Assembly: GCA_905478325.1 (NCBI GenBank)
Contig: CAJQIB010000011.1
Span: forward strand, 1 to 37,986
Source of the DNA: an uncultured Flavobacteriales bacterium
GTDB lineage: Bacteria; Bacteroidota; Bacteroidia; Flavobacteriales_D; Sanyastnellaceae
Length of the DNA stretch: 37,986 nucleotides
Reading direction: 5' to 3'
Shown here: positions 25,376-30,653 of the stretch, piece after piece
How the letters are laid out: each line of letters opens with the position of its first letter
How positions within the stretch are numbered: position 1 is the stretch's first letter
Notes under the pieces: model-generated
Told to the model about the DNA's origin: nothing
Seen by the model: the letters and a program-made list of their open reading frames with translations, nothing else
Database searches by the model: none
Program-made: the position numbers and the translations under genes

Positions 25376-27796
25376 ATGAAGCGATTTACATATTTGATTA
25401 TTACCGTGTTTGTTCTGGCATCGTTTCAGCCCTTATTGGCTCAGACTTCTACCATTAGCGGGACAGTGCTCGATGCCGAAGCGCATTATCCGCTGATCAA
25501 TGCCACGGTGCAGCTTAAGACCCTGGAGGGAGCTGTTGTCGCCACTGACCTCGATGGACGTTTTGAGTTTCAAGATGTTCCTGTAGGTCGGCATTTGGTG
25601 GTGGCGTCTTTCATGGGATACGAGTCGCGTGTATTGGATGGGATAGTCGTGAACAGCGGACGTCCGGTCATTTTGGAGGTGAAGATGCAGGAATCCGTAA
25701 TTGCCATTGAAGCGGCCGAGGTGACGGCTACGCAGCAAGGAGAGGTCATGAATGAAATGGCTACGGTCAGTGCACGTGCCTTTACCGTAGAGGAAACAGA
25801 TCGGTATGCCGGGTCTCGAGGAGATCCCGCTCGTATGGCGAGCAATTTTGCCGGGGTACAGGGGGCTGATGACAGTCGGAATGACATCGTTGTCCGTGGA
25901 AATAGCCCAAGTGGTGTGCTTTGGCGATTGGAAGGGGTGGATATCCCAAACCCGAATCACTTCAGCATACCAGGGTCTGGTGGTGGTCCTGTTGCTATCT
26001 TGAACAACAAGGTTTTGGCCAACTCTGATTTTTTCACGGCTGCGTTTCCTGCTGAGTTTGGCAACAGTACTTCTGCCGTGTTTGATTTGCGCATGAGAAA
26101 TGGTTCACAAGACCGACCTGTTCGGAGTGTTCAATTTGGTTTCTTAGGAGCTGAACTGATGTTTGAGGGAGCGCTCAATCGCGAAAAGCGATCAAGTTAC
26201 TTGGTGAATTATCGCTATAGCAGTGCCGCCATATTTTCGACGCTGGGCATTGACATTGGAACCAGTGCTGTTCCAAAATATCAGGATGGAAGCTTCCGTC
26301 TGTTTTTTCCTCAATCCAATGGGGGAGCGTTAGCGCTTTGGGGAATCGGCGGAGTGAGTGACGTTGATATTCTGATTTCAGAGCAAGAGGTACCTGAACG
26401 AAACCTCTATGGTGACAATGATCGCGATCAATACTTTGGATCGGGAATGGGAATTCTCGGCGCGACGTATACCCGTCCGATCAATGAACAGACCTACATG
26501 AAGGCGACGATTGCTGCCAGCCGCTCCTATCAGGATAGCGAGCACGATTTGGTTTACCGCCAACTGACGGCGGACAGCTTGTATCAGTTGGACAGCATCG
26601 TGGATTACATGGGCTACCGGTTTGTAAATGACCGTTTAAGTGCCGCTGTGCATGTCAATCGGAAATTGAGTCGCAAAGCGAGCCTTCGGTTTGGTTTGAA
26701 CATCGACGGGATGTTTTGGAACTTCCAAGACAGTGTTCGAGTGGATGTTGATTCATCGGCAGCGTTGGGAAATTGGACCCAGCGTTGGGATGCTGAATTG
26801 CAGACAGCATTGGTTCAACCTTTTGTTCAGTGGAAGTACCGGCCCAATGAGAAAGTGACGGTAACGGCCGGTTGGCACGCTGCGTACCATTCGCTTTCTG
26901 GCGATGTATCGATGTTCGAACCGCGTTTAGGCGCGCAATACAAGGCCAATGATCGCACTGTTTTCAGCGCCGGAGCAGGACTTCATAGCCAAACCCAAGC
27001 GTCTTATTTGTATGCGAGTACAACAGGACAGGACGCCGCAGGAAATTTGATTATGCCGAACCAAAAGATGGAGATGACACGAAGTCTGCACACCGTGTTG
27101 GGCATGTCACGGCAGTTGAGTCCGGATTGGTCACTCAAAATGGAGGCCTACTATCAAGAGCTGAGCAATATCCCTGTTGAGATGCAGGCAAGTAGCTTCT
27201 CTTTGATCAATACAGGAGCAGGGTTTAGTCGCTTCTTTCCTGACTCCCTGAAGAATGATGGCACAGGCCGGAACTATGGCGTCGAGGCAACCGTGTCTCG
27301 CGCTTTCAGAGACGGCTGGTTCATGATGCTTACCGGCTCTCTTTTTGATTCGAAGTACACAGGCAGTGACGGAATTGAGCGCAATACAGACTTCAATGGC
27401 CAGTATGCCTGGAACGCTTTGGCTAGCCGAGACTGGAAGTTCAATGAGCAATGGAGTCTTGTGACTGGAATTAAATACACGATGGCCGGAGGAAGGAGGT
27501 ATGGTAACGTCGATCCTGAGGCGAGCGCTGCGGCGCGTGAAGTGGTGTTCTATGACGACAACTTCAATTCGTTGCAGTTCGATCCTTACATGCGTTTGGA
27601 TATAAAGGCCAATGTCACGTGGAATCGCCCTGAAAGCACGCATGAATTGGGCATTGACTTTGTCAACGTAACGGGCCGCGAGAATGTTTTGAAATTGACG
27701 TATGCACCGGATGAATCAAACAATCCAGATGAGAGCGTTCGCGAAGAATATCAGCTAGGATTCCTTCCAATCTTTTTCTACCGTGTGGACTTCTAA
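25376..27796 (+). CDS. TonB-dependent outer-membrane receptor
   Basis: The 806-residue protein has a signal peptide (cleaved near LLAQT), a CNA-B/carboxypeptidase-regulatory-like domain at about 25-105 (ISGTVLDAEAHYPLINATVQL, TDLDGRFEFQDVPVG, ASFMGYES), a plug domain at about 125-240 (GDPARMASNFAGVQGADDSRNDIVVRGNSPSGVLWRLEGVDIPNP), and a beta-barrel to the C-terminus ending in FFYRVDF, with a terminal Phe typical of outer-membrane barrels. It is not a SusC: no SusD gene follows. The cargo is unknown; a metal chelate or vitamin is plausible, and the ABC importer at 17149 is only 7 kb away. Its stop overlaps that of the convergent recombinase gene in CTAA. Confidence 0.95.
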   Translation: MKRFTYLIITVFVLASFQPLLAQTSTISGTVLDAEAHYPLINATVQLKTLEGAVVATDLDGRFEFQDVPVGRHLVVASFMGYESRVLDGIVVNSGRPVILEVKMQESVIAIEAAEVTATQQGEVMNEMATVSARAFTVEETDRYAGSRGDPARMASNFAGVQGADDSRNDIVVRGNSPSGVLWRLEGVDIPNPNHFSIPGSGGGPVAILNNKVLANSDFFTAAFPAEFGNSTSAVFDLRMRNGSQDRPVRSVQFGFLGAELMFEGALNREKRSSYLVNYRYSSAAIFSTLGIDIGTSAVPKYQDGSFRLFFPQSNGGALALWGIGGVSDVDILISEQEVPERNLYGDNDRDQYFGSGMGILGATYTRPINEQTYMKATIAASRSYQDSEHDLVYRQLTADSLYQLDSIVDYMGYRFVNDRLSAAVHVNRKLSRKASLRFGLNIDGMFWNFQDSVRVDVDSSAALGNWTQRWDAELQTALVQPFVQWKYRPNEKVTVTAGWHAAYHSLSGDVSMFEPRLGAQYKANDRTVFSAGAGLHSQTQASYLYASTTGQDAAGNLIMPNQKMEMTRSLHTVLGMSRQLSPDWSLKMEAYYQELSNIPVEMQASSFSLINTGAGFSRFFPDSLKNDGTGRNYGVEATVSRAFRDGWFMMLTGSLFDSKYTGSDGIERNTDFNGQYAWNALASRDWKFNEQWSLVTGIKYTMAGGRRYGNVDPEASAAAREVVFYDDNFNSLQFDPYMRLDIKANVTWNRPESTHELGIDFVNVTGRENVLKLTYAPDESNNPDESVREEYQLGFLPIFFYRVDF

Positions 27797-28758
27797 GCCT
27801 CTCGTATGGAGGTAGAAGTCGTTTTTACAGGAGTGGACTCTCCGCTTCTCGGATGAAACTGTATGATTTGCTCGCGCAAGAATCGACGATCGAGGTGGGT
27901 GTAGATTTCGGTCGTTGCAATTTGTGCATGACCGAGCATTTGTTGAACAGCGCGTAAATCGGCTCCTGCTTCGACCAAATGGGTCGCGAAACTGTGACGG
28001 AACGTATGCGGGCTGATGGTCTTTCGTACTCCTGAATTGATGGCTGCACGGCGTAGCATCGTAAAGGCCATTTGACGGCTTAAACCACGACCTTGTCTCC
28101 CGAGAAAGAGGACGTCATCGTTGCCTTTCATCGGGATGATCTGAGAGCGATATTCCGACAAGTAATCGTCGATGGCGTTCAACGCACTGATTCCAATCGG
28201 AACGACGCGCTCCTTGTCGCCTTTGCCGATGACCTGGATGACCCGGTCAATGACATCAACTTGAGAAAGGCGCAATTCACACAACTCAGTTACGCGTAAT
28301 CCACAGCTGTATAAAACTTCCAGCATGGCTTTATTGCGAACACCTTCTCTTCGAGACAAGTCGACCCCGGAGATGATTTGACCAATTTCGGTGACGCTCA
28401 ATACATCGGGAAGTTTCCTTTGTGGCCGAGGTGATTCAACCAGCTCCACGGGGTCTCCCGTTAACATGCCTTCCATTCGCAGGTATTTGCAATAACTCCG
28501 AATACCAGACAGCATGCGGGCTTGACTGTTTCTAGCCAAGTCACGATCAAATAAGGAACCCATGAAATCTTCGATACAAGCCATGGTGATTAAACCGGGG
28601 CGACTAATCGCTTTCTCAGATTCGATGTACTCTACGAATTGGTGGATATCACGCGTGTATGCAGCAATGGAGTTCTTGCTTAAGCCACGCTCTAATTCAA
28701 GGTAATTGCGGTAGCCCGCAATCGAGGACTTCCAGTCTGAAGAGTTTTTGCTGGTCAT
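27793..28758 (-). CDS. xerD: Tyrosine recombinase XerC/XerD
   Basis: The 321-residue tyrosine recombinase has an N-terminal SAM-like core-binding domain (YRNYLELERGLSKNSIAAYTRDIHQF) and a catalytic domain with R155 (SCGLRVTEL), K179 (GKGDKER), H251 and R254 (PHTFRHSF), H277 (MLGH) and nucleophile Y286. Such proteins resolve chromosome dimers at dif; XerD is the likely paralogue, and no mobile element is nearby. The ATG at 28758 overlaps the upstream stop in ATGA; an upstream in-frame TTG at 28767 is less likely. Confidence 0.93.
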   Translation of the reverse strand: MTSKNSSDWKSSIAGYRNYLELERGLSKNSIAAYTRDIHQFVEYIESEKAISRPGLITMACIEDFMGSLFDRDLARNSQARMLSGIRSYCKYLRMEGMLTGDPVELVESPRPQRKLPDVLSVTEIGQIISGVDLSRREGVRNKAMLEVLYSCGLRVTELCELRLSQVDVIDRVIQVIGKGDKERVVPIGISALNAIDDYLSEYRSQIIPMKGNDDVLFLGRQGRGLSRQMAFTMLRRAAINSGVRKTISPHTFRHSFATHLVEAGADLRAVQQMLGHAQIATTEIYTHLDRRFLREQIIQFHPRSGESTPVKTTSTSIREA

Positions 28759-29969
28759 GGCATCCAATTTTGTTTGGAGAGTAAGAGCGCTTCCTGAACC
28801 GTTATCCGATCATTCCTTAAATAGGCAGTCACAAAGGGGCCTGGCAGAGCATGTGCTCTCGCAATGCGTTCCCTTTGATCTCGTGCGTGACGGTAATGTG
28901 CGTGGCTTCCCGTTGTGTACTTGATCCAATTGTTGTGCCGTTCAGCATCGACTTGTTCTCGGAAGGCATAATGGTCTTCAAACCAGAGCTGGTCGACATC
29001 CCGATGGCACGCCATGATTTGCACGCGGTAAGCAATTCCGTCATCCGGTTCAGGAACAGAGAAGTCCGGCCGAGTTGTCGCCTGAACCTCTGGTGTTGTC
29101 GTTGCTTTTGTTTGATCGGTCAGCTCCTGAAGAGCGACGTCATCTGGTGAGGGCGCACGCTGTTCCAACGGACTTGATGGAATGACCACGGAATGCGGTT
29201 GGTTATTGAGAATAGTATGCCACGTCCCGTGCACGTTGGCAGCGCAAGCGGTCATATTTCCAGATAACCGATAGGAAAGCTGAATGGAAGGGGTGGCAGG
29301 CGCGTGCTGCCAGACCAATAACAGCGTGTCGCCAAACCGGTCGATGATACTTGGATTGCCGTTTGATTCCCATTCAAAGGTGCAGTCTTTGGGAATGATT
29401 TCTTCCCATTTCATAAAGGACCCTGGCTCGAAGCCTGAGAATGCGAGCTCCATGTAGCCGATGTCTTCGTTTTCAAGAGTCAAAGAGCGCGTTGCTTGCG
29501 GATTCCATGTATTCTCGGTTTGCATGGCAGTGGCTGGAGTTCTGTCCAATGAAATCACATGCGGTTCGAACTCGACGTCTCTCCGAGAACCTTCTTCAAT
29601 GAATGAAAACCACTGCTTGACTTCGCCTCCGATGAAGTTAGCGCGTGTACTAAGTCGCACTGAAATGTGGATAGAGGGTGTCGTTGGGATGTCCATCCAA
29701 ATGAACTTGGCCTTTTGATCCTCGTACGTGAAAGAAGCTCCGTCTGTTTTCAATGGCTCGATGATGATACCAGGAGGGAAGCTCAGTTGAAACCGAGCGA
29801 ACCCCGCTGTCTGTCCTTTATCGATGGTCCAAGAAGCGATGGTGCTGGATCCCACGGCCATGGAATCAGGGAGTGTGTGCTCTTCTACAAGTCCCAAACC
29901 AATAAATAGCAAGAATGCATTGATCAGTGGGTGGTACAAAATGGAGGAAGCGAATGCGAAAAGAGCCAT
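28755..29969 (-). CDS. Hypothetical membrane-anchored protein with C-terminal SPOR-like domain
   Basis: The 404-residue protein begins with an N-terminal hydrophobic segment (ALFAFASSILYHPLINAFLLFIGLGL), probably a signal anchor. The middle (30-280) is beta-rich with two similar halves: FARFQLSFPPGIIIEPLK...FIWMDIPTTPSIHISVRL and YMELAFSGFEPGSFMKWEEII...LLVWQHAPATPSIQLSYRL, suggesting an internal duplication. After a Thr/Pro-rich linker, the end (about 315-390) is SPOR-like: IAYRVQIMACHRDVD, NNWIKYTTGSHAHYRHARDQRERI. SPOR domains bind denuded peptidoglycan at division sites. The start is the ATG at 29969, six bases after a one-mismatch -7 box TACCGTTG (29983 to 29976). It is co-transcribed with xerD. 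Confidence 0.8.
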   Translation of the reverse strand: MALFAFASSILYHPLINAFLLFIGLGLVEEHTLPDSMAVGSSTIASWTIDKGQTAGFARFQLSFPPGIIIEPLKTDGASFTYEDQKAKFIWMDIPTTPSIHISVRLSTRANFIGGEVKQWFSFIEEGSRRDVEFEPHVISLDRTPATAMQTENTWNPQATRSLTLENEDIGYMELAFSGFEPGSFMKWEEIIPKDCTFEWESNGNPSIIDRFGDTLLLVWQHAPATPSIQLSYRLSGNMTACAANVHGTWHTILNNQPHSVVIPSSPLEQRAPSPDDVALQELTDQTKATTTPEVQATTRPDFSVPEPDDGIAYRVQIMACHRDVDQLWFEDHYAFREQVDAERHNNWIKYTTGSHAHYRHARDQRERIARAHALPGPFVTAYLRNDRITVQEALLLSKQNWMP

Positions 29970-30087
29970 GTATGCCAACGGTATATGCTAATCTACCGGT
30001 CAAGCTGTCGCATTGTAGTGCCATCGAATAGACTTGCGAACACCTATATGTGGGCTGATTCGTGTTTGGCTACTGTGATGTTGGTAC

Positions 30088-30124
30088 AAAAAAATAGTCC
30101 TGTCCCGGCGTTCCGGAACAGGAC
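30088..30124 (-). terminator. Intrinsic terminator of the candidate RNA
   Basis: Minus strand: stem GTCCTGT/ACAGGAC with an inner U-G pair and CCGG/CCGG, loop AACG, then TA and seven T (30094-30088). The plus strand has no T-tract after the stem. Confidence 0.85.
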
Positions 30125-30179
30125 CAACTTAACCAAATTATCACTTGATGCTTAGCTTGCGCTAAACTCACTTAAAACC
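30088..30179 (-). ncRNA. Candidate structured small RNA or leader RNA
   Basis: On the minus strand a TAACTTTG box predicts a start near 30179. Two hairpins follow. The first has stem GTTTAGC (30167-30161) and GCTAAGC (30156-30150) closed by a GCAA GNRA tetraloop. The second is an intrinsic terminator ending at 30088. Each stem contains one G-U pair that would be a C-A mismatch if the plus strand were transcribed, so the fold favours the minus strand. The RNA would be about 92 nt. It could be a free small RNA, or a leader with an attenuator for the SPOR gene, which begins 119 bases further on. I do not recognise a named family. Confidence 0.5.
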
Positions 30180-30183
30180 GAAT

Positions 30184-30191
30184 CAAAGTTA
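30184..30191 (-). promoter_or_regulatory. -7 box TAACTTTG for the candidate RNA
   Basis: Full TAnnTTTG match on the minus strand, about 60 bp upstream of the terminator stem. No strong -33 element is seen. Confidence 0.45.
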
Positions 30192-30285
30192 GGTTTCGGT
30201 ATAGCTGATAAACGGAGGGGGCGAATAGGTTATTGACATCCACTCGTTAAAAAACCTTACCCTTTGGATTTCATGGATTGTCCGC

Positions 30286-30311: not shown

Positions 30312-30653
30312 ATGAAGTCAGGAATTCACCCCGAAAATTACCGCTTGGTTGTCTTCAAAGACATGTCCAACGAATACTCGTTTTTGAGCCGTTCAACTGC
30401 GAATACAAAGGAAAATATTGTCTGGGAGGATGGGAACGAATACCCCTTGATCAAAATCGAGGTCAGCCACAAGTCCCATCCATTCTACACGGGTAAGGCC
30501 CAATTCGTAGATACAGCAGGACGTATCGATAAGTTCCGTAAGAAATACGGTGAGTTTGGAGGTAAGGCAAGTATGGCGATGCAAGCCGATGCGGCCGAAG
30601 AGACTCCAGAAGCTCCAGAAGCACCGGAAGCTTCAGCAGCGTCAGAGGAATAA
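30312..30653 (+). CDS. rpmE2: Ribosomal protein bL31, type B
   Basis: The 113-residue product has the type B L31 core (about 1-85): [64 protein letters not shown]. No zinc-binding CxxC motif is present, which marks the zinc-free type B form. The C-terminal tail ([18 protein letters not shown]) is a Pro/Ala/Glu extension, common in Bacteroidota ribosomal proteins. AAGGAAAG just before the ATG may act as a ribosome binding site. It is a monocistronic unit with its own promoter and a strong terminator. Confidence 0.97.

Follow-up and report, generated by a model that had tools for sequence, protein, structure and literature searches.

A conserved structured RNA gene next to rpmE in uncultured Flavobacteriales, a probable trans-acting small RNA with sigma-54-type relatives

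The window analysed in this work is a stretch of 37,986 nucleotides from an uncultured Flavobacteriales bacterium of the family Sanyastnellaceae (GenBank assembly GCA_905478325.1, contig CAJQIB010000011.1). In it, rpmE lies divergently from an operon that includes an open reading frame (ORF) and xerD, and the spacer between them carries a conserved structured RNA gene on the minus strand (Table 1). An initial annotation, made from the letters of the DNA, had described in this spacer a -7 promoter box, a hairpin and an intrinsic terminator placed in that order on the minus strand, and direct reading confirmed them; as judged by these signals, the small RNA (sRNA) gene possesses its own promoter and its own terminator. 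The same annotation called the downstream ORF SPOR, a name that no Pfam or NCBIfam match backs, and it missed the weaker second hairpin which, together with the stretch that follows it, is the most conserved part of the element. The hexamer AAGUGA occurs twice within the RNA.

Table 1. Features of the RNA gene and of its surroundings, with positions in the window.
Feature	Position	Strand	Basis or remark
-7 promoter box TAACTTTG	30191-30184	-	Bacteroidota consensus TAnnTTTG; sequence read directly
First base of the RNA	5 nt past the TAACTTTG box	-	predicted position
CGTT, possible -33 element	30211-30214	-	putative label; aligned rows compared by eye
sRNA gene, 92 nt	30179-30088	-	full-length covariance model match; 5' end deduced from the promoter, 3' end from the terminator
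Hairpin 1, 7 pairs, loop GCAA	30167-30150	-	GUUUAGC-GCAA-GCUAAGC; fold and covariation
Hairpin 2, AUCAAGU-GAUA-AUUUGGU	30149-30132	-	predicted fold
AAUUUGGUUAAG, proposed pairing region (seed)	30128-30139	-	common to the sigma-54-type paralogue
Intrinsic terminator, AACG loop	30126-30088	-	direct reading; stem 30126-30095 of 14 pairs (8 G-C), seven T at 30094-30088
rpmE, ribosomal protein L31, divergent neighbour	30312-30653	+	Pfam PF01197
Downstream ORF (SPOR in the initial annotation)	28755-29978	-	no family match
xerD	27793-28767	-	TIGR02225

The 97-nt minus strand has a predicted folding energy of -38.1 kcal/mol, against a mean of -20.3 for shuffled sequences (z = -5.5; none of 200 shuffles was as good). 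Five window-type RNAs from other genomes that were folded singly (loci L053, L025, L024, L049 and L022) gave the same three hairpins, and one from genus g6 (L067) also has a good fold (z = -7.6) but a different 5' side. The first hairpin had been described as GNRA-capped, which holds for the window copy and its GCAA loop and does not extend to the relatives, where the loop varies (UUCG, UACG, CGCAGC and others). Each stem had also been said to contain one non-Watson-Crick position; the terminator stem has two, a basal G-U and an internal U-G. The asymmetry between G-U on one strand and C-A on the other, previously read as a signal of selection, is weak evidence when it comes from one sequence and is insufficient alone.

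A search of Rfam 15 at the gathering cut-off gave no match in the window or in 20 loci with relatives, which included both kinds of RNA described in this work. Twelve sub-threshold matches obtained with permissive thresholds, the best of which by E-value reached 20.2 bits against a cut-off of 70, were taken as chance. In the literature searched, nothing was recognised as the window RNA.

At the DNA level, 27 of 60 relatives were matched, among them 21 of the 22 genomes of the genus, its own included; the only genus genome without a window-type RNA is G007, where locus L212 gave no model match. Within the genus, GGUUUUAAGUGAG, hairpin 1, GCAUCAAGUGAUAAUUUGGUUAAG and the terminator are conserved, GCAUCAAGUGAUAAUUUGGUUAAG being nearly invariant, and the flanking DNA diverges. 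A covariance model applied at an E-value of 0.001 with stricter filters matched 69 of 114 family genomes. By our own count of rows scoring at least 57 bits, 62 of the 114 have strong matches (genera g1, g9, g13, g3, g10 and g14), and the best matches of the remaining seven (g2, g5, g6 and g12) are of about 30-40 bits. The window-type RNA is single-copy in its own genome at the same E-value. Over the order, the model matched 74 of 299 genomes, with weak scores (29-36 bits) outside the family, where six places were found in five genomes (G039, G041, G046 twice, G158 and G240). Five outside-family places were read, and in four of them the core is absent and the sequence looks like a terminator; a similar hairpin is kept at L071 (G039). 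The exact 19-mer AAGTGATAATTTGGTTAAG is present in 64 stretches of species genomes, in records nearly all labelled as uncultured Flavobacteriales, Bacteroidetes or Crocinitomicaceae. Three labels are odd (Chryseobacterium, Euryarchaeota and Nesciobacter); two of these records have strong model matches and are probably mislabelled bins, and the Nesciobacter one has none. The one viral contig with the 19-mer gave no model match and looks like coding sequence, and the other three own-genome copies of the 11-mer WTTTGGTTAAG are not RNAs of this kind.

Covariation was scored on two sets of sequences. With 22 sequences (19 distinct) there are nine pairs with changes on both sides, and 40 cells compared with a shuffled mean of 12.6; the set of 43 sequences gave 14 such pairs and 126 cells, for which shuffling yielded a mean of 39.2. 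In both cases none of 500 shuffles did as well. Structures slid along the 43 sequences reached at most 31 cells. On four of five measures no shuffle out of 500 equalled the alignment, and the number of pair types was not above the shuffles in either set (146/500 and 294/500). These shuffles ignore the relatedness of the sequences, which the slid controls keep, but the structure was derived from these same sequences. Hairpin 1 of g10 is placed wrongly in the MAFFT alignment A4, and the pair counts come out lower as a result. Covariation is strongest in the terminator stem, of whose 14 pairs 11 show changes on both sides among the 43 sequences; in hairpin 1 such changes affect one pair (22 sequences) or three pairs (43 sequences). 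Hairpin 2 hardly varies and so offers no covariation, for which reason its pairing is a prediction from the fold. Loop lengths differ by one to several nucleotides among relatives, and the structure covaries. We conclude that the minus strand of 30088-30191 carries a real, conserved structured RNA gene; the covariation and the lack of a gathering-level match bear out the earlier proposal of a structured minus-strand RNA outside the Rfam families.

The promoter box was followed in 43 aligned rows over seven genera, and TAnnTTTG was found in 21 of them (with other spacing in g6). Twelve of the 20 g1 rows have this sequence and the other eight a degenerate near form, nAnnTTTG; in g1 the box is always 4 nt ahead of GGTTTTAAG, and most of the 20, as judged by eye, share CGTT at a roughly constant position. 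The variant TAnnTTGC, which is present in both g9 rows and in six of eight g10 rows, resembles the motif SM5 (TAnnTTGY) of Flavobacterium psychrophilum (PMC9723704). In g3 the box is not clearly recognisable in four of five rows. Approximately 50 nt before the RNA start, TGTCAATAACC or a near form of it (30228-30238, minus strand) is retained in the g1 loci; it lies between the two divergent promoters and is possibly a regulator site or a part of the rpmE promoter.

Several weak matches of the covariance model carry UUUGGUUAAG ahead of a terminator with an AACG-type loop, and several of these RNAs sit behind a sequence of the type TGGCAC-N5-TTGC, which we take to be the sigma-54 promoter consensus. 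The pattern TGGCAYRN4TTG-N(35-65)-TTTGGTTWAG was found in 55 of the 299 genomes of the order, all from the window's family, and the reversed pattern gave one match. These sister RNAs have the same UUUGGUUWAG-terminator arrangement as the window RNA, mostly with an AACG-type loop. The own-genome copy is located at G000:C22:454-520 on the minus strand, and a copy of the L070 type is present in 20 of the 22 genus genomes. Scored with the model of the window RNA, the copy from G019 reaches 35.2 bits and that of the own genome 16.6; because the latter score is so low, the homology of the paralogues is drawn from the whole genus. Among the 30 sigma-54-type loci listed, the neighbour is thiolase-like in 15 and recQ-like in six (g7 and g8), names that were assigned by eye. 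In several genera the sigma-54-type promoter and its sRNA are divergent from the thiolase-like gene (L081, L082, L155, L156, L171 and L176-L184). Two g5 loci (L076 and L077) contain tandem arrays of four related RNAs each, placed 216 to 346 nt apart, with four model matches per array of 20.8 to 32.6 bits; both arrays adjoin a gene that by eye is BatE-like.

Candidate targets come from scanning the own genome for copies of AACCAAAT with an ATG at most 20 nt further on, and every place was examined. The scan gave 62 places with 58 distinct AACCAAAT sites, one of which is the RNA gene itself, and nearly all the places are inside a mechanical ORF. Three fall in a likely 5' untranslated region (UTR), ahead of the gene for protein A (L246), of that for protein B (L319) or of tsf (L310), where AACCAAAT lies directly at the gene start; a possible fourth has AACCAAAT 49 nt ahead of a bactofilin-like ORF (L317). 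The reversed pattern gave nine places, which is an unfair control because AAC and CAA are common codons. Judged by eye, both A and B resemble secreted proteins of large size that contain GC.D..A.NY.P....DDGSC repeats. A 501-aa stretch of protein A had no match in Pfam; its N-terminal part has 11 to 38 matches per genome in the genus, with 30 in the own genome, and belongs to a large family.

The complementary sites are conserved ahead of both genes. Of 21 orthologues of A, 20 have ACCAAAT and all have ACCAAA in the 25 nt that precede the ATG, with surroundings that vary between subclades; G013 was excluded, its best match reaching only 45% and starting from residue 33. For B, CCAAATTGTCT is present in 16 of 17 orthologues, together with one or two more CCAAA before the ATG, and five genomes without a match from residue 1 were excluded (G003, G005, G010, G012 and G021). 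In a sample of 392 kb of the own genome, CCAAA was found in the last 35 nt before nine of 177 ORFs with free upstream DNA compared with a permuted mean of 7.6 (rank 4/10), and it is therefore no general start signal; ACCAAAT is mildly common ahead of genes (3/177 vs a permuted mean of 0.59; rank 4/105). A search of the 22 genomes for the 18-mer complement with three mismatches gave 24 places outside the RNA, and the reversed control gave 23. In the own genome, a recQ-like ORF (L361, 14360-16558, minus strand) also has CACCAAATGTCTGATTG just before its ATG, as target B does, and a recQ-like gene is likewise the one that adjoins the sigma-54-type sRNA in g7 and g8. The 5' UTR of B (L326-L342) contains, before the CCAAA sites, a hairpin that by eye has an AAACG-like loop in most species and a changing stem. 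In the 392-kb sample, AACG is absent from 25 other terminator-like hairpins with four-base loops.

Pairing was predicted for both RNAs and both mRNAs, and since A and B were picked by the seed-complement scan the energies are partly selected. For the own genome, the predicted energy between A and the 27-nt core taken from the window RNA is -23.1 kcal/mol, a value that none of 177 other UTRs and none of 500 shuffled cores equalled; between B and this core it is -14.1 kcal/mol, which 25/177 UTRs and 39/500 shuffled cores equalled or bettered. With the sigma-54 core, B gave -27.2 kcal/mol (0/177 and 0/500) and A a weak pairing (24/177 other UTRs). When the first 55 nt of the window RNA are used with A the specificity is lost (13/177 UTRs and 48/500 shuffled sRNAs as good), and the seed is partly inside hairpin 2, which would need to be opened for pairing. 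Across the genus, 40-nt sigma-54 cores and 200 shuffled targets were used. The window core with A gave at most 1/200 in seven of 21 genomes (G000, G005, G008, G010, G012, G018 and G020) and 3-43/200 in the other 14, which include the RNA-less G007; with B the values ran from 0 to 55/200 over 17 genomes, with at most 1/200 only in G002 and G009. For the sigma-54 RNA, 0/200 was obtained with A in seven of 20 genomes (G001, G004, G006, G007, G014, G017 and G021), and 0-1/200 with B in seven of 16 (G000, G008, G009, G011, G015, G018 and G020). We read these predictions as a single regulon whose pairings would have been re-matched between subclades; chance variation around a shared seed would be another explanation.

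Several explanations were weighed for the function of this RNA. The initial annotation had offered two, a trans-acting sRNA and an attenuator or riboswitch-like leader of the SPOR-xerD operon. As a cis-acting leader, the element would have its terminator switched by a ligand, by translation or by a protein, and it does consist of a promoter, a folded RNA and a terminator that precede an operon on the same strand; moreover, 43 of the 45 loci whose downstream DNA is long enough carry a xerD motif there. Nearby, 48 of the 50 window-type loci have a divergent rpmE motif. Nevertheless, the two loci that lack xerD, both from g6, hold the RNA and rpmE with another gene downstream (glycosyltransferase-like by eye), and in four of six testable g14 loci xerD comes directly next and the intervening ORF is absent (the exceptions are L049, where an ORF of about 390 aa intervenes, and L064, with an equal gap). 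Therefore, the RNA usually stands ahead of the operon but can occur apart from it. Where ORFs do not overlap, the distance to the next mechanical ORF ranges from some 16 to 222 nt, the spacer between terminator and gene lacks conservation, and the related RNAs adjoin the thiolase-, recQ- or BatE-like genes (named by eye). Considering these points a leader is quite improbable, and the trans-acting sRNA is the favoured one of the two options. An RNA that binds a protein, e.g. one with an RRM domain, through the AAGUGA repeat, hairpin 2 or the AACG loop, with mRNA pairing being secondary or absent, seems unlikely as well. It would agree with the two copies of AAGUGA, with the invariance of hairpin 2, as expected of a protein site, with an AACG loop that stands out from the 25 sampled hairpins and has an AAACG-like counterpart in the 5' UTR of B, and with an own genome that has two RRM_1 matches and no Hfq match. 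Hfq was detected in none of 36 relatives, compared with five of 14 control genomes. RRM_1 proteins, however, are present in only 19 of the 36 relatives and were not found in G022, which has a sigma-54-type sRNA, and conserved seed-complementary sites in two mRNAs are also at odds with protein binding as the main function.

It is also conceivable that the RNA acts in trans and that the ACCAAAU sites of A and B are due to chance or to another cause, the true targets being elsewhere, an explanation that partly overlaps with the favoured one. It draws on the selective scan from which the sites came, on the weak pairing in 14 of 21 genomes and on the mild excess of ACCAAAT ahead of genes. Against it, CCAAA has no general enrichment, and the strong predicted partner of the sigma-54-type RNA is A in one subclade and B in a second one. 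We see in it a serious possibility, albeit one that falls clearly short of being probable.

On the evidence computed for the conserved structure, the terminator, the promoter box, the paralogue family and the complementary sites, we consider it probable that the window RNA is a trans-acting, base-pairing sRNA of about 92 nt, with its own promoter and terminator, which pairs with mRNAs of secreted proteins. We infer that it would be transcribed from a housekeeping-type promoter, divergently from rpmE, and would end at its own terminator. The stretch around AAUUUGGUUAAG would then pair with (A)ACCAAAU sites located in the roughly 25 nt that precede the start codon, in mRNAs that encode large secreted repeat proteins, and in this manner it would probably block the initiation of translation, i.e. 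the presumed sign of regulation is negative. The sigma-54-type paralogue, having the same seed, may pair with the same mRNAs, and two promoters would therefore feed one post-transcriptional control of secreted proteins. In its widest form this proposal is tentative and rather doubtful: a two-promoter sRNA system in Bacteroidota where Hfq was not detected, with a common seed, a common AACG loop and common mRNAs, whose partners would be re-matched between subclades; the AAACG-like hairpin in the 5' UTR of B hints at a common RNA-binding protein as a putative partner.

This RNA is absent from Rfam 15 and has been kept in several genera of Flavobacteriales, most of them uncultured; its covariance model can serve to annotate uncultured genomes. 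If the proposed function is true, the uncultured Flavobacteriales gain a family of sRNAs that has a seed, a sigma-54 branch and targets that can be tested, its carriers would be bacteria without detected Hfq, in which post-transcriptional control is little known, and sigma-54 activity would be linked to the control of secreted proteins.

The Qrr sRNAs of Vibrio are driven by sigma-54, exist in several copies and have a common pairing region; they use Hfq and serve quorum sensing. The likeness to them is limited to the sigma-54-type sister RNAs, since the promoter of the window RNA is of the housekeeping type. Within the Flavobacteriales, Rfp18 of F. psychrophilum is described as a structured sRNA conserved in Flavobacterium, with mRNAs of secreted proteins among its predicted targets, two of which fall in a deletion mutant (PMC9723704). 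Compared by description alone, both are structured, conserved Flavobacteriales sRNAs with secreted-protein mRNAs as predicted targets; they differ in that two target mRNAs of Rfp18 fall upon its deletion, whereas repression is presumed for the window RNA. FopS and GibS of Bacteroides thetaiotaomicron are reported to be paralogous sRNAs that carry an intrinsic terminator and have a common, single-stranded seed, from a member of the Bacteroidota without classical chaperones; GibS acts at translation initiation regions, and FopS is found in Bacteroidaceae with 12-15 copies per genome (PMC11697453). Paralogues, a common seed and an intrinsic terminator are what they have in common with the RNAs described here, again by description alone. 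Unlike the multi-copy FopS in that account, the present family comprises one housekeeping-type gene, whose RNA has three predicted hairpins, and its sigma-54-type relatives.
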